This document shows positions 35,530 through 49,374 of a stretch of 64,000 nucleotides of DNA, piece after piece. The position numbers and the translations under genes were made by a program. This stretch comes from Endozoicomonas montiporae CL-33 (GTDB lineage: Bacteria; Pseudomonadota; Gammaproteobacteria; Pseudomonadales; Endozoicomonadaceae). The stretch is from NCBI RefSeq assembly GCF_001583435.1, contig NZ_CP013251.1, forward strand, positions 3,609,215 to 3,673,214, written 5' to 3'. Position 1 is the first letter of the stretch, and the number at the start of each line of letters is the position of its first letter. The notes under the pieces were generated by a model, which was given only the letters and a program-made list of their open reading frames with translations, did not search any database and was not told where the DNA came from.

Positions 35530-37136
35530 CTAACCGACGGCGGTTTCAACCGGCGTTAATGTGAAGCCCATATCTTTAGCCTTCTGCTTCAGGGTTTTCA
35601 AAACTCTTTCTCTGTACCGCTGCTCAAAGTATTCCTGACCTTCATCTACATACTGGCTCCCATGCTTGAGCATACTGTAAACCAGCCTTGCCAGCTTATG
35701 CGCTGTTGCCGTAATCGCCTTTGGAGCACCAAGCTTGCTTCGCATTCTTCGGTAATAAGCACCCAAAGCACTTTTTGATCTGGTCAGTGAATAAGCCGCC
35801 AACCTGAATGCTGTTGCGGCTGCGCCTGGCAAACGCTTGGTTTTCCGGTTCAGAACTTTACCACCGGATATTTTGGTTCCGGGACAGAGCCCTAACCAGG
35901 AGGCAAAATGTTTAGCGGAAGGCCATCGACTCATATCCAGACCGATTTCTGAAACAATCTTCAGAGCCGTATTTTCATCAATGCCATCGATATCAGTCAG
36001 ATCGACACCACTCACCCGGTTGAGCTCTGAACGCACATCAAAGTCTGGAGCGCAACGGGACTTCCGTTTTTTTGAAGGCTTATCTGGCGTAGAAGGCTTT
36101 TGAGAGTCTTTATCATCTTTGCTGTCAAATGTGTTGAGCTTCTGTTCCAGAGCTTTGTCACAAGCCCTGATTTTTTCATCATAAGTATCGTAAAGTTCAA
36201 CAGCTTGCCGCAGAGCAAATACATGCTCATCCCGGTAATGCCCCTTCAGGGATTTGGCGATTTCTTCCTCGGATTTTTTGCAGTGCTTGTCACGATATCT
36301 GGCCAGCTCCACAGGATTCCGCTGCCCATTCAGTATGGCGCGGATAATAGTCATACCGGTTTTTCCGGTAATATCAGTCACCACATTATCCAGTAACAGA
36401 TTCATCTGTCGAAGTGCCTTTTGCATATGCTGGATGTGGGAAGCACGGTAGCCAACAAGAGTGTCACGTTGTCGTCTATAGGATCGCAATGAACAAACCT
36501 GTTCATCCGGGCGGAACGCGCCATTGAGCAATCCGTAAGTATGTAACTGCAAAAGCCATTGGCAGTCCAGAACGTCAGACTTACGTCCGGCAACATTCTT
36601 TACATGTCGTGCATTGACCAGTTTTACATCAAGCCCCGGGATTCCAGTATTTCAAACGCAGGTATCCAGTAAATCCCGGTTGACTCCATCACAACGGTGG
36701 TAATGCCAAGCTTTACGAGCCAGTCAGCCATAGCTTCAAGGTCTGCGGTAAAACAGCCAAATGAACGCACCGGTTGTTCATCTAACTCTTCTGGCACTGC
36801 AACAAAGTGTGACTCTGACCCGATATCAATACCGGCGGCAAAGAGATTGATTTTCTCCAGATGTCCAGCAATACGCTTTTTGACTCTGTCAGAATGGGAA
36901 CGGTTGGATTTGCTGCGGCGAGACATGGTTTACCCTCTATACTTCTGTGCGAAGGCATATCCGGATATGGGGCTGTCGATGATTCGCATTCTTCCGAACG
37001 AGATCGCATATTGCGTCATCAGTGATGTTGTCGCCAGCTCCCCGACCACGCTTTCAAACGGGCAAAAGGCACCAGTGTGTTTACGGTCTCTGGTCCGGAT
37101 ATGTCTTCCTTTCTATCATAGGCATGTAGGCAGTAG
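35472..37136 (-). mobile_element. IS110-family element, broken (limits approximate)
   Basis: IS110 elements lack clear inverted repeats, so the ends are set only by neighbours: the ISNCY flank on one side and the truncated sulfatase on the other. The transposase is frameshifted. The 210 bp upstream of the transposase start (36927-37136) is where IS110-group elements keep the non-coding bridge RNA gene. Confidence 0.6.
35530..36926 (-). pseudogene. IS110-family DEDD transposase, frameshifted
   Basis: The N-terminal part (36624-36926) has FAAGIDIGSESH (first Asp) and VVMESTGIYW (Glu). The rest, in another frame, continues as LDVKLVNARHVKN...GRKSDVLDCQW with the last two Asp of the DEDD site, then the Transposase_20 part GLCPGTKISGGK. 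The break is at the G4 run (plus strand C 36634-36637); one extra G would restore a continuous protein of about 460 residues. It is probably inactive. Confidence 0.85.
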
Positions 37137-37934
37137 TTGGGAGAAAAGTTACTCATAGATGTTCAGCCGGGGGCCCGGCTTGGAGCGCTTTTAATTAAAC
37201 GAAATGCTGACAAGCCTTTCTTTCTCGAAGTCTCTTTTACATCACCTCACGCCCCCATGTCTGCACCCGATGACTATATGAAAAGGTTTGAACACCTGGG
37301 AGAAAGGCAGACGCTGGCTGCCATAATTTCCAGCATGGACGACAATATCGGTTTAATTCTGGATAAGCTCAAAAAAGAAAACCTGACAGACAACACCATG
37401 GTCGTTCTGTTTTCCGATAACGGCGGCAAATTCGTACACGGTGGCGATAATGGCCCACTACGAGGTGAAAAGGCCGGGGCATTTGAAGGCGCCATTCGTG
37501 TGCCTTTTGCCGCAAAACTGCCGGGCAAAATAAAACCGGGCACCCGTTCCGACACCATGATCAGCGCGCTGGACCTTTTCCCGACCACCGTAAAACTGGC
37601 CGGAGGGGAAATCGATCCGGAATGGGATCTGGATGGTAAAGACATCATGCCGGTGCTCAGTGGAGAAACCACTGAAAGTCCACACGACACACTGTTCTGG
37701 CGCTATGGTGAAAGCTGGGCTCTGCGTCAGGGCGAATGGAAACTGGTGCAGAATCGCAGAGAGAAAGCAGGTCTTTAAAACCTTGCCGATGATATCGGTG
37801 AAGAAAATAGCCTGATAAATGAGTTTCCGGAAAAAACCCGACAAATGCGTAAAACCTGGCAGGAAATGAGTAAAGAGTTTGGTGGCGCAGAGTGGGGACG
37901 CTTCAAAGGTAAAACCGATCGTCGAATGAGGTAA
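37137..37934 (+). pseudogene. truncated sulfatase
   Basis: The C-terminal half of a formylglycine-type sulfatase. NADKPFFLEVSFTSPHAPM, LSDNTMVVLFSDNGG-like TDNTMVVLFSDNGG, GEKAGAFEGAIRVPF and SALDLFPTTVKLAGG are family landmarks. The N-terminal half with the catalytic C/S-x-P-x-R is missing, probably removed with the IS110 insertion. A TAA at 37776-37778 interrupts ...KAGL*NLADDIGEEN, where the family has a tyrosine (TAT to TAA likely); the frame then continues to 37934. The gene is dead. Confidence 0.85.
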
Positions 37935-38881: not shown

Positions 38882-39481
38882 TTAAACCTCCAGGTGTTCA
38901 ATAGCGTGCTCTGCGTCCTGCAGGGCTTTACCCCTCACATCACTTATTGCCAGCCCCTCGGCATAAACAAACTGAACGTCGTCTATTCCAAGAAACGCCA
39001 GAAAATCGGTGACATAACGGGTTTCTGTATCTTTGGGTGTACCTTTATACAGACCGCCACGGGTTGTCAGAACATAGGCTTTTTTTCCGGTTAACAACCC
39101 CACTGCCCCCTGATCGGTGTATTTGAAGGTAATGCCCGCCCTGGCAATATGATCAAAGTAAGCTTTCAGCGTTGAAGGAATGCCAAAGTTATACATTGGC
39201 AGCCCCAGCACCAGAATATCCGCTTGCTGCAGTTCATTAATCAACTGATCTGACAGCTCCGCTGCCTGACTCTGGCTTTCACTTCGCTCGGCAGCCTGAA
39301 GGGTAAAGCCCTGAAAGCTGTCTGCCGTTAAATGAGGAACCGGTTTGGCGGCGAGATCCCGATGAATGACTTCAGCATCCGGCTGTTTGACCAGCAGGCG
39401 ACTGATGAAAGTCCGGGCCAGTTTCGAGGATTGTCCGTCTTTACCAAACAGACTTGAAGAGATATTCAGAATGGTGCTCAT
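38882..39481 (-). CDS. azoR: FMN-dependent NADH:quinone/azo reductase AzoR
   Basis: A dimeric flavodoxin-like enzyme that reduces quinones and azo compounds with NADH, protecting against thiol stress. It has LNISSSLFGKDGQSSKLA (FMN phosphate), LPMYNFGIPSTLKAYFDHI and VLTTRGGLYKGT. The 199-residue length is typical. AGGAG precedes ATG 39481. It is the first gene of azoR-pirin; no LysR regulator, often adjacent, is seen. Confidence 0.93.
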   Translation of the reverse strand: MSTILNISSSLFGKDGQSSKLARTFISRLLVKQPDAEVIHRDLAAKPVPHLTADSFQGFTLQAAERSESQSQAAELSDQLINELQQADILVLGLPMYNFGIPSTLKAYFDHIARAGITFKYTDQGAVGLLTGKKAYVLTTRGGLYKGTPKDTETRYVTDFLAFLGIDDVQFVYAEGLAISDVRGKALQDAEHAIEHLEV

Positions 39482-39699
39482 GGTGGGCTCCTGTCAGCAG
39501 GTTTGTATTTTTTTCAACATACTTATCAATTTATCGTCGAATATTACGAAATAAAAGACGAAAATTTGGAGCTTATCTATCCATTTTTTCGAAAATAATA
39601 AACAGGGAGGGAACTAACAGCAGGGTATATTGATCAAAAGGGTTCGGAAACAGGTAATTGTTTTTTTGTCACAGCTGACAAACCCCAACGGAGCGCAGA
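39482..39699. other. intergenic region between azoR and the ETS gene
   Basis: AT-rich divergent promoter region of about 218 bp. It should hold promoters for both genes; I see no certain hexamers. CACAGCTGACAAACCCC lies just upstream of the ETS gene ribosome site. Confidence 0.3.
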
Positions 39700-40518
39700 A
39701 TGGATACAGCTTTTCAAAATGATCCTCTATTCAGGTCATGTTTTGTGCCGGACTTTCGCTCTTACGCCCCTGATGGCGTTGAAAAGGATGATTCGACTCT
39801 GTGGGGGCGTATACTTTCTCAAAGTGAATTATCAGACCAACCATCTGTTTCAGTAAAAGCCCCTCAAAATACGGAAACGTTCCAGACAGCAGCTCAGGAA
39901 CATAGCAGTCTGGAGCAGCGGCAGGCAACAGCCGTCTCACCGTTTCCCCATCAAACAGTTTCCACTATGGTCGTAGCTGCGCCTTACAACCAGACAGTAA
40001 CCCTTCCCGTTTCGTCAACCGACTCATCAAGCGCTCAGCCTGCCGGCAATTATCAAAAAAACGCAGTCGCTAAGAGGTCTACTCAGAAGAAACCCACTCT
40101 ACAAAAAAAAGCAGTTGCTGAAGGTAAAGTTGCTAAAGGTAAAAAGGCCATGGCAATAAAACAGCGTAAAGTGAGCAAAGCTAAACGGGCAACAATCTAT
40201 GATTTTCTACTTAAGAAGCTGTGTGACGGAAACGACGATTCTGTTATCTGGCAGAATAGATCCGAAGGCACTTTTGTATTAGCCAAGAGGAGGCAGGTGA
40301 TACAGCAATGGGGGAAAGTTGGCCGTAGCAAAGGATCAATGACATTCGAATCCATGGCCAGAGGCATGCGTTACCACTACAAAACCAAAGTAATGAGATG
40401 TACAGGGCAAAGTGGTGTTTACGCCTTCAACCCCGACCACCCCAAAGTTCAACGCTATCTTGGAAGCATAAACAACGAAGCAGCCTCCTCCTCCAGTCAA
40501 CAACCTGCTCCTGACTAG
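39700..40518 (+). CDS. ETS-domain protein, animal-type DNA-binding domain in a bacterium
   Basis: A 272-residue protein. Residues 1-120 are polar (Ser/Thr/Gln-rich) and probably disordered; 125-163 form a lysine-rich NLS-like stretch (KRSTQKK, KGKKAMAIKQRK, SKAKR); about 165-256 match the metazoan ETS winged helix. Helix 1 is TIYDFLLKKLCD, then SVIWQN and GTFVLA strands, RQVIQQWGKVG, and recognition helix MTFESMARGMRYHYK, with both DNA-contacting arginines kept (Arg221, Arg224), then a VYAFN strand. GGAG six bases before ATG 39700 shows bacterial translation. There is no signal peptide. The inference is a secreted effector acting on host promoters; a bacterial regulator is the alternative. 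Confidence 0.85.
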   Translation: MDTAFQNDPLFRSCFVPDFRSYAPDGVEKDDSTLWGRILSQSELSDQPSVSVKAPQNTETFQTAAQEHSSLEQRQATAVSPFPHQTVSTMVVAAPYNQTVTLPVSSTDSSSAQPAGNYQKNAVAKRSTQKKPTLQKKAVAEGKVAKGKKAMAIKQRKVSKAKRATIYDFLLKKLCDGNDDSVIWQNRSEGTFVLAKRRQVIQQWGKVGRSKGSMTFESMARGMRYHYKTKVMRCTGQSGVYAFNPDHPKVQRYLGSINNEAASSSSQQPAPD

Positions 40519-40567
40519 CCTGAATAATCAATCAAAACTGCGCTGAATGCAGCCGCTATTTCAGTCA

Positions 40568-40813
40568 CTATTCACCCGCTTTGCGAATCACATAAATGTA
40601 GTGTTTATCTTCTTCCTTACTCTCCAGCAATTCATGATCCAGAAAGTTGCAAAACTTGGGTATATCGCGTTTGGTTGAAGGGTCAGTAGCGATCACCTTA
40701 ACCACTTCACCCGCCAACATATCCCGAACCTTGTTGTGCAGCATCATTACCGGTTCAGGGCACAACAGCCCACAGGTATCGAGTTCGTGTTGTACTTCAA
40801 TGTGCTCAGACAC
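40568..40813 (-). CDS. tusA: sulfur carrier protein TusA
   Basis: Carries persulfide sulfur from IscS to the Tus relay for tRNA 2-thiouridine, and to molybdenum-cofactor enzymes. The 81-residue protein has [10 protein letters not shown] with the carrier Cys18, [12 protein letters not shown] and a YVIRKAGE end, as in E. coli. It starts at GTG 40813 with GAGGAT upstream. Monocistronic. Confidence 0.93.
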
Positions 40814-45714: not shown

Positions 45715-48700
45715 TTAATAATCCACGCTTCTCTCTACACTAACGCCACACTTTTTACAATGTTTCTCAAGTGTATCTTTAGCTTCAATCACCTCTGCCC
45801 ATTTATATTCAGGCATATTGTATTGGTTTAACTGGCTGATTTTTTCCAGCAATTTTTTCGCCTTAACACAATATGGCTGGATAGGAGTAGGATCGAGTTC
45901 AAGCCCTTCCCTCATTGCTTTCATAGCATGAAATGAGTTTTTCCAGCCTTCATAAGTTTTAACAATTGGGAATGCTTCCACCAACAATGGAGTAACGTGC
46001 TCATAGGTATACAACATTCCTTCAAGGCGGGCTAAACGAAATTTAGCCTTGCTGGCTTTACTATTACGTTTAGCAACGATCTCCTCCAGTGGTCTATGCC
46101 CGAGAATAACTTCGTTGTCTGAAATATCATTGGCATAGTGCTTTTTATACATGACAACAAGATCATTGATCAGCCTGATGACTCTCTGGTATTCCTCATC
46201 GACAAGTTCTTCTATCGTGTCGTGAAGCCATACAGAAACTGGATTGTCACTCAACCTCTCCTGTAATGCTTGTAGAGAAACAAACCCTTCAAAGTCAGAA
46301 GAAATGTAGCCTTTGTCTTTTAGAGGAAGAAGATAAACCGTCGTTCCTATCATTTTCGCCTGATCTACAACAGCAACCCGATTAAACAAAACATTCATTC
46401 CATCCAGAAAGCGCATAGTGACAGGCAATTCATTAGCATCTTTGAAACGGCTGGTTTTTCTGCTTTCTACTTTCTGGAATGCTATTGCTTTAAGCCGCTC
46501 AGCAATCACCCTGTCAATGCCCTTCCAACTTTCAGGCGGCTCCAGCCCTTGCAACTTCAATACATCTTTGCTGTGAAAAAGCGGTAATCCAACGTCTGCA
46601 GTATTACTTCTCTTCGCTCCGTACATGGCAACCCAAATATTTTGCCTGATACGTTCAATAACAACCTCTTTCCATGGTATTCCTGAGTCGATATCACGCA
46701 TTGCAGAAGCCAGCTCATCCAATACCGGTCTGACATTGCTCTTTTGCTTTATTCTGGCCAGCCGCGCAGCAACATCTGTTTCCAACTCATCTTCGATAAC
46801 TGTTTGCTTAGTCACAGGGATATCAGTACGAGGAATAGCAGCAATTTCATTTAGAGAGTTGACCGAACCTTTCACTGATGAATCATCGCCGGTTTCCAGT
46901 GACGAGTCTATCGAGCTAAGACTGGACTTGTGGGTTTGTTTTGCAAGAGTTTCAGCTGACCCAGCCTGATCGTACTGCCCTGAGTGCTCCAACCCTGAAT
47001 CCTCATACTCTGACACTAATTTTTCTCTTTCAGGCTGTGGCTTTCTACCCTCAATGCTGCTGTCAGAATCAGATAACGACTCTTCATTGACTCTATTTTC
47101 CACTACAGTGTTGGAGATTGCCTCAAACTCTGCTTTTTCTACAGTGTACTCGGGCTGGACAGACACAACTTCAACCATTTGTTTCTTGTCATCATGCTCA
47201 GGATCAATAACTGCGATTGCATCACCAGACTCTTCTAGTGTTTTAATCTCCGATTCATCCCGACTCGTCACCTTGTCAGCGTCTTCTGACCCAGCTGTTG
47301 GAGCGAGAGTGAGCACAGTATCTGGCCCAACCATTGATTGATCTAACGTCAGAACTGGTTCAGAGATGACATTTTCATCGTTAACAGCCTCCAACTCCAA
47401 CACCTTCTGGGTTTCCTTAACCCCAGGTTTTGGTTGCGGTTCTTGCTGATAAAGACTTCCAATCCGTTCAACATTTTCTGCTGCAGCGGATTCAGTGTTT
47501 CGCTGACTGAACTGAGTTTTTTTCAAAGGAGCTATCTTTTGAATGGGTACTCTGGGTTTAACCATCAAGTCGTCGCGCTCTCTTTGCGTTATGGCTGCCT
47601 TAACCAACGTCACCAGATTAAACGATGACTTTTGTTTTAAGCTGTGCAACCAGTATGGAAATACCTTTCGAGGTTTCATCAACTGAAGAGCAGCAACGCT
47701 CGGCAAGCGTGACTTAACGCGAGGCACCGGATCAACCGCTAAAGTTATTTTTGCAGCAGGCTCAACAGGCAGCACTTTGGAAACCGTACCAGAAGCAGGC
47801 GCACCAGAACTTTTCTCGCCTGAAACAGGCATTCTCTTGCCCGCCATATGAACCGCCTTGCCAGCCATTATCATGGATGCCTGCACAAACAACGCTCTGT
47901 AAAGATGGTCGTAATAAAAAGCCTTTTGAGCCTCCATCCGGTTACTGGCTGAATAAGCACCCGCTACCGGTGCGGCAGAGGCCGTTTCCAGAACAGCATG
48001 GCAATAATGTCTGTCGGAAGACGGCTTCTCGATATTGATCAGGTTACCTGGCAGATAATAAACTGCTCCGTTCATAACCACTTCCAGACAACCGCTCTTT
48101 TCGCTGGGCTGAATCAACCAGTCGGACGAATAAGGGTCAGTCTCACACTCTTCAGCATTGCAGGGTTCAGAATTGATGTCTACGACTACGACTCCGTTCT
48201 CATCCTTTCCGTCATAATGACTCAGCCATTTTGTCAAAATTATTATCCAGTCCGGCCCCAACGGTGATTCAAACTGGACATCGTCTGTCCATTCCCCGGT
48301 CAATTCCGGATCTGAATTGTCTGTAATAAAATCAGTGCCATTGACGGGATCACTTTCAAGATTACTTTGAGTTCTGTGCTTTTTGGCATAAGCCCTGGTT
48401 TGCTCATAGGCAGTGATAATATCTTCAAGCCAGAAACGCCCATTGGAAGAGTGAAAATCAACCACAACTTGCCGTCGAGCCCGGTCATTAACAGGGTATA
48501 CCGTCATTCTCAAAGTTTTGGATTCAATGTCATCTGCTTCCGACTGACAGAAAAACCCACTCAGATGGCAACCGTCCGGCACTGGAAAATCAAGCTCCAG
48601 ATACACCTTTTTGCTTCGCAACACTCTGGTCAACTGTTGCACTACATCGCTCTCGCCTGCCGTTTTGCCCGTTACAACCGGGGATACTTCCGGCAAGGGC

Positions 48701-49239
48701 ACAATTCGATAGAACAAGCGATGTTCGCTGAAATCATAAACTCGCTGAATATGAAGAGAAGGATAACCGGAAATCACCGTTGCTATCAGTTGAATAACAT
48801 ACCGGTTTTCGTCTTCGCCCAGTTGAGAAAAGCGATAAGATCTGGAAAACAGATCCAGATAAAAAGGCACCATTGAGCGGAGAGACTGCAGGAACATCGT
48901 ACCATAGGCGACCCTTGCCGGGCTGAGCTTTGATGACAGCCAGTTCGGGAAAACAGCGTAAGACAGCCCGCCCACCAGCACAGAAGCCAGCGTCATCCTG
49001 AATGACGCCTCAGCGCTGTTAATTAAAGAAGACAGATAGGGTGCATGATAAGCCTCGGCCTCCGATGAATAAGATTGATCGTAGTAAGACTGTACTCCAC
49101 TACCATCAAAGCCCAATGTTCCAAATGGAAGGTCGTGAAAGCGCTGGTCACCAGCACAAGACTGCCTGTTGGAACACAACAGCAAGGCGCTGAGAAAAAA
49201 AACTCTCAGGATAAATTTCGTATTATTTGTCACTCTCAT
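45715..49239 (-). CDS. large exported protein of unknown function
   Basis: An open frame of 1174 residues. A Sec signal peptide (NTKFILRVFFLSALLLCS, cleaved after about residue 30) is followed by three parts: about 30-520, mixed alpha/beta with possible hydrophobic segments (FRMTLASVLVGGLSYAVF) and several cysteines; about 580-830, disordered and Ser/Glu/Asp-rich; about 835-1174, helical with a cysteine pair near the end (CKKCG). I start at ATG 49239, not the preceding TTG. No domain is recognised. The gene lies against the cco genes, splitting ccoNOQP from ccoGHIS. Its size and style suggest an accessory, host-associated factor. Confidence 0.8.
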   Translation of the reverse strand: MRVTNNTKFILRVFFLSALLLCSNRQSCAGDQRFHDLPFGTLGFDGSGVQSYYDQSYSSEAEAYHAPYLSSLINSAEASFRMTLASVLVGGLSYAVFPNWLSSKLSPARVAYGTMFLQSLRSMVPFYLDLFSRSYRFSQLGEDENRYVIQLIATVISGYPSLHIQRVYDFSEHRLFYRIVPLPEVSPVVTGKTAGESDVVQQLTRVLRSKKVYLELDFPVPDGCHLSGFFCQSEADDIESKTLRMTVYPVNDRARRQVVVDFHSSNGRFWLEDIITAYEQTRAYAKKHRTQSNLESDPVNGTDFITDNSDPELTGEWTDDVQFESPLGPDWIIILTKWLSHYDGKDENGVVVVDINSEPCNAEECETDPYSSDWLIQPSEKSGCLEVVMNGAVYYLPGNLINIEKPSSDRHYCHAVLETASAAPVAGAYSASNRMEAQKAFYYDHLYRALFVQASMIMAGKAVHMAGKRMPVSGEKSSGAPASGTVSKVLPVEPAAKITLAVDPVPRVKSRLPSVAALQLMKPRKVFPYWLHSLKQKSSFNLVTLVKAAITQRERDDLMVKPRVPIQKIAPLKKTQFSQRNTESAAAENVERIGSLYQQEPQPKPGVKETQKVLELEAVNDENVISEPVLTLDQSMVGPDTVLTLAPTAGSEDADKVTSRDESEIKTLEESGDAIAVIDPEHDDKKQMVEVVSVQPEYTVEKAEFEAISNTVVENRVNEESLSDSDSSIEGRKPQPEREKLVSEYEDSGLEHSGQYDQAGSAETLAKQTHKSSLSSIDSSLETGDDSSVKGSVNSLNEIAAIPRTDIPVTKQTVIEDELETDVAARLARIKQKSNVRPVLDELASAMRDIDSGIPWKEVVIERIRQNIWVAMYGAKRSNTADVGLPLFHSKDVLKLQGLEPPESWKGIDRVIAERLKAIAFQKVESRKTSRFKDANELPVTMRFLDGMNVLFNRVAVVDQAKMIGTTVYLLPLKDKGYISSDFEGFVSLQALQERLSDNPVSVWLHDTIEELVDEEYQRVIRLINDLVVMYKKHYANDISDNEVILGHRPLEEIVAKRNSKASKAKFRLARLEGMLYTYEHVTPLLVEAFPIVKTYEGWKNSFHAMKAMREGLELDPTPIQPYCVKAKKLLEKISQLNQYNMPEYKWAEVIEAKDTLEKHCKKCGVSVERSVDY

Positions 49240-49374
49240 CAAAGCTATTTATTTGAAAGACGGGTAATATAGACCATCGAAAATCTGGATAGTTTTTTCA
49301 AATAACACCTGAAAGCCTGTATCTAATTCGACGCAGCAACAAAAGAAATCCAAAAAAGCGGTGTTTTTAGCGCA

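Follow-up and report, generated by a model that had tools for sequence, protein, structure and literature searches.

A putative nucleomodulin with an animal-type ETS DNA-binding domain in the coral-associated bacterium Endozoicomonas montiporae

Introduction

Bacterial effectors that act in the nuclei of host cells are known, and the TAL effectors of plant-associated bacteria are injected, sequence-specific regulators of host genes whose repeats make up a DNA-binding fold of their own, bacterial in origin. To our knowledge, no described nucleomodulin is built on an animal transcription-factor domain. In the present study, we analyzed a gene of Endozoicomonas montiporae CL-33, hereafter P0001, whose product would work like a TAL effector and carries, unlike one, an animal-type domain. 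The action proposed for it is on host chromatin or promoters, as for bacterial nucleomodulins (e.g., TRP47 of Ehrlichia; PMC6224051), whereas its DNA-binding part belongs to an animal transcription-factor family.

P0001 resembles the animal ETS factors (ELF/ESE, SPI/PU.1, ETV6, and ELK) in its profile match, predicted fold, and two recognition arginines. Presumably, the C-terminal placement of its ETS domain is also that of the ELF/ESE factors. Unlike them, it lies on a bacterial chromosome behind a Shine-Dalgarno-like run, has the helix-1 tryptophan replaced, holds no Pfam domain besides ETS, and falls into no supported group of our tree. With the YopJ family of type III effectors (PF03421) the likeness lies in a relative, locus L023, in which a YopJ-type domain is joined to a C-terminal ETS domain, whereas P0001 itself lacks PF03421.

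E. montiporae CL-33 is reported to be hosted by a coral and to possess type III secretion, and the main text of the paper describing this (PMC4781883) contains no word beginning with ‘ets’; the same holds for the main text of a 2025 review of the family (PMC12491435). A 2022 paper lists an ‘Ets domain’ among the eukaryotic-like domains of Endozoicomonas clade A1 with no function given in its available portions, names a ‘transcription factor 15-like gene’, and speculates on host immunity in general terms (PMC9743535). Domain and family are those studied here, and YOMI1, named in that paper, is a carrier in our scans too, whereas the portions of it available to us held no ETS model, family survey, effector fusion, or mechanism. 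In the available excerpts, Endozoicomonas and homeobox genes appear in separate contexts in one paper (PMC12403961), and another also pairs Endozoicomonas with homeodomain as terms (PMC6754371). Our literature search found nothing linking Endozoicomonas with nucleomodulins.

An intact bacterial gene for an ETS-domain protein

The features of the gene within the window (the whole stretch of 64,000 nucleotides that was analyzed) are as follows.

39690..39693, + strand: Shine-Dalgarno-like GGAG, 6 bases 5' of the P0001 ATG
39700..40518, + strand: P0001 gene, ETS-domain protein of 272 aa; open frame intact, Pfam ETS E 2.8e-15
39700..40059, + strand: polar N-terminal part, residues 1-120; pLDDT 39-54 by block, no strongly hydrophobic start
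40060..40188, + strand: Lys/Arg-rich NLS-like stretch, residues 121-163, by K+R composition
40195..40428, + strand: ETS domain, residues 166-243, by Pfam match
40345..40383, + strand: recognition helix, residues 216-228, with Arg221 and Arg224; helix in the model, both arginines conserved to at least 90% over 15 aligned rows
40441..40491, + strand: additional C-terminal helix, residues 248-264, in the model; pLDDT 75-90 up to residue 260, then about 53

The open reading frame and the Shine-Dalgarno-like sequence described in the first-pass annotation were both recovered, and the frame runs from its ATG through 272 codons with zero internal stops. The claimed lack of introns holds for this frame. 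The Pfam ETS profile (PF00178) matched residues 166-243 with 56.9 bits against a curated cut-off of 26.9, and the best 60 of 70 PDB sequence matches were all ETS proteins, led by ETS homologous factor (EHF; E 9.4e-11) and followed by ELF2, ELF3, and ELK1. Besides ETS, hmmscan against Pfam up to E 10 returned no domain in P0001, PF03421 included. Arg221 and Arg224, which had been proposed as DNA contacts, align with the two recognition-helix arginines of ETS proteins, positions that we take to be those of the arginines touching GGA in ETS factors. On this sequence evidence, the domain is an animal-type ETS DNA-binding domain in a bacterial gene. The earlier claim that it follows the ETS pattern strand by strand stands for the profile, the order of the fold, and both arginines, with one departure at helix 1, where P0001 has IYDF against LW(E/Q)F in the aligned animal domains; the first tryptophan of the core is replaced by Tyr167, with W184 and W204 kept.

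The structure model of P0001 matches ETS and shows the winged helix of ETS domains with elements in the order a1-b1-b2-a2-a3-b3-b4; both this fold and a loose N-terminus are predicted. Residues 1-120 are probably disordered according to the model. The first-pass annotation had claimed a disordered N-terminus; over residues 1-160, pLDDT is 39-54 by block, which fits disorder and does not prove it, and two short helices (residues 9-15 and 32-41) are present. The basic, NLS-like stretch that had been described is there as judged by composition, with K+R at 36% over the 45 residues preceding residue 166 vs. 6% N-terminal of those. By a hydropathy rule, on which all signal-peptide calls in this study rest in place of a trained predictor, P0001 has no signal-peptide-like start; the most hydrophobic 12 residues among its first 45 score 0.28 vs. 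2.71-3.09 in four relatives.

Genomic setting

The window is part of one contig of 5,430,256 bases. P0001 stands alone between two bacterial genes, and the relevant features are as follows.

38882..39481, - strand: azoR-like gene, flavodoxin fold, left flank (PF02525, E 4.1e-47)
39602..40568, no strand: segment without counterpart by blastn in L044 (genome G007), with the ETS gene as its sole content
40568..40813, - strand: TusA family gene, right flank (PF01206, E 1.2e-22)

The same order of flanking genes was found in two relatives (G007 and G005), both of which lack the ETS gene at the matching site. Homology by blastn ends at 39601 (L044) or 39562 (L045) and restarts at 40569, and the gap between azoR and tusA is 1086 bases in E. 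montiporae vs. 235 in G007 and 233 in G005. An azoR match was found in 9 of 10 genomes of the genus, E. montiporae included, and tusA lies beside azoR only in E. montiporae, G007, and G005 among the 12 locus stretches compared. Synteny and base composition had been proposed as checks, and the absence of the gene at this site in two relatives and its low GC3 both favor the reading preferred below. GC3 of the P0001 frame is 0.425, below every one of 31 chosen window genes (mean 0.539, SD 0.045, minimum 0.439). No direct or inverted repeat of at least 12 bases occurs in 39480-40700, no tRNA was found within the 64-kb window, and of two pattern matches among viral contigs neither encodes a relative.

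Further features lie in the window. An IS110-type transposase is split over two adjacent frames (35530-36552 and 36624-36926, - strand), with PF02371 over and PF01548 under the cut-off. A sulfatase fragment lies at 37137-37778 (+ strand), its match starting at profile position 157 of 301. The protein of 1175 aa encoded at 45715-49242 (- strand) starts with a hydrophobic stretch, and Pfam returned nothing for it at E 0.001.

ETS domains recur within one bacterial family

Of the 37 Endozoicomonadaceae genomes scanned, 15 gave an ETS match over the Pfam cut-off, and these carriers belong to 5 of 8 genera; the other 22 were without a match. Within a set of 94 genomes of relatives, all 15 carriers belong to this family (0 of 57 in other families). 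In an evenly drawn sample of the class, the sole carrier among 369 genomes was E. montiporae itself (0 of 368 others), and 14 control genomes had none. The genome scan gave 16 loci over the cut-off, P0001 being one of them, so at the level of sequence the E. montiporae gene is no lone oddity. For another of these proteins, P0002, as which the ETS protein of G005 reads, the NCBI name is already ‘ETS domain-containing protein’. Absence from other assemblies had been named as a reason for doubt; the exact P0001 gene was found in no other species searched, but ETS genes other than this one were found repeatedly in the family. The searches for P0001 itself in a large protein set, by single protein and by alignment (1 and 5 proteins), cover candidates that share short words and are of similar length. 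Borderline matches were few. Locus L034 scored 27.3 bits in the genome scan (over the cut-off) and 24.4 in the protein scan (under), L017-L019 were under the cut-off, and a match in a class genome outside the family (G330, L020) was likewise under it, with three internal stops, and was taken as chance.

An animal-like domain in a host-associated bacterium is what contamination by host DNA or an assembly artefact would produce, and several other ETS-positive genomes are drafts of hundreds of contigs. Against this, P0001 lies on a single 5.43-Mb contig between bacterial genes ordered as in two relatives, and the ETS matches of six further genomes sit in contigs of 5.07, 6.28, 5.16, 6.09, 5.57, and 7.22 Mb. 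We therefore regard contamination or artefact as refuted, with a negligible chance left to it.

ETS domains are joined to unrelated N-terminal parts

For comparison of the domains, we aligned P0001 with 14 of the 15 other loci over the cut-off (L027 was omitted as a near copy of L026). Across the 15 rows, whose mean column identity is 19%, W184 never varies, and conservation reaches at least 90% at F169, W204, R221, and R224. Both recognition arginines are present in 14 of 15 rows; L035 is without both. The domain begins 80-123 residues from the C-terminus in the 18 proteins examined (L036-L038 aside), and blastp of the N-termini indicates that it forms the C-terminal end of otherwise unrelated proteins. 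These N-termini fall into five groups (L021/L026/L027/L028; L025/L031/L032/L033, with ankyrin; L034/P0004/P0005; L024/L029; and L036-L038), those of P0001, L022, L023, and L035 match none other, and L030 was left out of the comparison as just 14 residues precede its domain.

Some of these proteins have further recognizable parts. L023 holds both a YopJ acetyltransferase domain (PF03421, 32.7 bits, cut-off 24.4) and an ETS domain (56.5 bits) in one protein, and ankyrin matches over the cut-off occur in four of the ETS proteins scanned against Pfam. By hydropathy, 4 of 16 proteins have strongly hydrophobic, signal-peptide-like starts (L022, P0002, which is L024, L029, and L035). The stretch preceding the domain has K+R of at least 0.16 in 12 of 16 (it is below in L021, L024, L029, and L035), and AT-hook-like GRP(R/K) or RGRP motifs lie ahead of the domain in L031, L032, L034, P0004, and P0005; animal ELF3, we assume, likewise has an AT-hook N-terminal of its ETS domain.

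The YopJ-ETS protein, of 682 aa, is encoded at L023:9905-11953 (- strand) in a genome of the same genus. In L036-L038, an ETS-like stretch below the cut-off and two marginal stretches were seen, which may be worn-down ETS repeats. Of four such repeats considered, the second is supported (18-21 bits, where 300 shuffles of L036 reached 5.8 at best), support for the first and third is marginal (3.6-8.0 bits), and the fourth was seen only in L038 (1.7 bits).

Origin and selection

A tree of 17 bacterial and 9 animal ETS domains over 95 columns, in which no cnidarian ETS is included and L036-L038, L027's P0002/P0003/P0005-form copies, and other duplicates were not all entered, has three starred branches and P0001 in none of them; the phylogeny proposed to find the donor lineage thus placed P0001 in no supported group. 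Bacteria came out on one side of a branch in 0% of 200 bootstrap trees (3-4 changes), and yet a single bacterial clade was not rejected (p-AU 0.263). Since many branches are also long, the tree does not decide on a donor or on how many captures took place. The best PDB matches differ among relatives, being EHF for P0001, PU.1 then ETV6 for P0002, ETV6 for L021, ELF2 then ELF5 for L022, and ELF5 for L023, L025, and L030; such differences hint at several captures and prove nothing. Capture of the domain from animals, as the first-pass annotation had claimed, is itself well supported by the sequence comparisons because in the scans made ETS passes the cut-off in one bacterial family only, which is animal-associated and holds four other families of animal transcription-factor domains.

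Could the gene be a passing, functionless capture on its way to loss? The searches made turned up P0001 in this species alone, the distribution of ETS is patchy (15 of 37 genomes), and of 8 pairs of relatives, 4 show a lower dN/dS for the ETS part than for the N-terminal part and 4 a higher one, a split from which we claim no extra constraint on the ETS domain. We nevertheless consider such a fate quite improbable, as dN/dS is below 1 in 8 of 8 pairs (0.14-0.87), the frame of 272 codons is open behind its Shine-Dalgarno-like run, the recognition arginines persist in nearly all of the divergent rows, and ETS has repeatedly been joined to unrelated N-termini.

Other animal transcription-factor domains in the family

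At E up to 0.001, the homeodomain was found in 16, bHLH in 15, forkhead in 9, and the HMG box in 9 (8 over the cut-off) of the 37 family genomes, and each in 0 of 14 control genomes. Together with ETS, 23 of 37 genomes have any of the five and 14 have none. The background for bHLH, forkhead, and HMG box is the 14 control genomes, and a class-wide background was run for ETS and the homeodomain; the latter occurs in 1 of 274 class genomes, E. montiporae itself. Ten such proteins from five genomes, scanned singly, each have at least one domain over the cut-off. Where a genome is a draft of many small contigs, its matches could stem from host contamination; the matches of G000, G005, G007, G019, G030, G031, and G035 sit in contigs of more than 5 Mb. 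The N-termini of different transcription-factor classes share no similarity by blastp at E 0.01, i.e., no common N-terminal delivery module was seen.

E. montiporae has three neighboring homeodomain genes and one bHLH gene (33.1 bits), and neither forkhead nor HMG box. The homeodomain genes (L081:3235-15442, about 4411734-4423941 of G000:C1) are alike, with hydrophobic starts, homeodomains of 51.4-52.9 bits, and N-terminal parts 79-88% identical. The bHLH protein has 554 aa (L082:3801-5465, - strand). In relatives, forkhead proteins (L085 and L087, 74.9-95.9 bits) and HMG-box proteins (L086 and L088, 57.3-80.0 bits) are over the Pfam cut-off. Single proteins may hold several matches, e.g., three bHLH stretches within 504 aa (L084:3861-5375, + strand), five forkhead matches, one under the cut-off, in a frame of 933 aa (G027:C35:1196-3517), and bHLH over and HMG box under the cut-off within 536 aa (L083:3305-4915, + strand).

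We lean toward the view that the Endozoicomonadaceae possess a toolkit in which captured animal DNA-binding domains (ETS, homeodomain, bHLH, forkhead, and HMG box) are joined to bacterial delivery parts and reprogram the host. We know of no bacterial effectors that use captured animal transcription-factor domains on such a scale. If this holds, symbionts of corals and other marine animals would write into the gene-regulatory networks of their hosts.

Proposed delivery and mode of action

The first-pass annotation had interpreted P0001 as a captured gene now serving as a nucleomodulin, an interpretation that is partly supported overall. The nucleomodulin model gains support, at the level of sequence, from the YopJ-ETS protein of one relative, the four ankyrin-ETS proteins, the four ETS proteins that start like signal peptides, and the presence of type III export genes in the genome; SctN, Q, R, S, T, and U are over NCBIfam cut-offs in one E. 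montiporae cluster about 57 kb past the window end. Our preferred reading, which we judge probable, is that P0001 is an intact gene, likely a capture from an animal host, whose product ends in the ETS domain and is likely delivered into host cells, where it would act in the nucleus on host GGAA/T sites. For P0001 in particular, we infer that it was captured from an animal, is exported, would enter the nucleus by means of its basic stretch, and would bind the ETS sites of the host.

An alternative is a regulator or nucleoid-binding protein inside the bacterial cell, with the ETS domain and the lysine-rich stretch binding the bacterium's own DNA. A lysine-rich stretch could bind any DNA, and the Shine-Dalgarno-like run and the lack of a signal-peptide-like start would suit such a role. 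It would have no need, however, for the YopJ-type domain, ankyrin repeats, or signal-peptide-like starts of the relatives, and the other animal transcription-factor domains of the family and the solitary position of the gene between the azoR-like and tusA genes also speak against it; we hold it to be fairly improbable.

With respect to the route of a delivered nucleomodulin, type III export is the most likely for P0001, as its start is not signal-peptide-like. Sec-dependent secretion, outer-membrane vesicles, or release inside the host cell would each dispense with type III export, and the hydrophobic starts of 4 of 16 ETS proteins and of the three E. montiporae homeodomain proteins are in keeping with this; given that P0001 has no such start and that one relative carries a domain of a type III effector family, we consider these routes unlikely, with some small chance of one being used.

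If P0001 is delivered as a nucleomodulin, the signal for export would lie in the N-terminal part, and the Lys/Arg stretch would bring about nuclear import and raise the affinity for DNA. The ETS domain would then bind host GGAA/T sites, where P0001 may act as a competitor of, or a substitute for, a host ETS factor. As no other domain is recognized in P0001, competition with host ETS factors would be the simplest effect, and activation via the N-terminal part is conceivable. In either case, delivered P0001 would alter which host genes are on. Common coral symbionts could in this way steer host gene programs with the host's own type of regulator, and how Endozoicomonas influences coral cells would become a question that can be tested on one small protein and its binding to GGAA. 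The family would also document the changes that an animal DNA-binding domain undergoes once it has moved into bacteria.

Adjoining the type III export genes of E. montiporae, a frame at L090:9101-11437 (- strand) matches a model for an effector inositol phosphate phosphatase with 264 bits, under the cut-off of 615.
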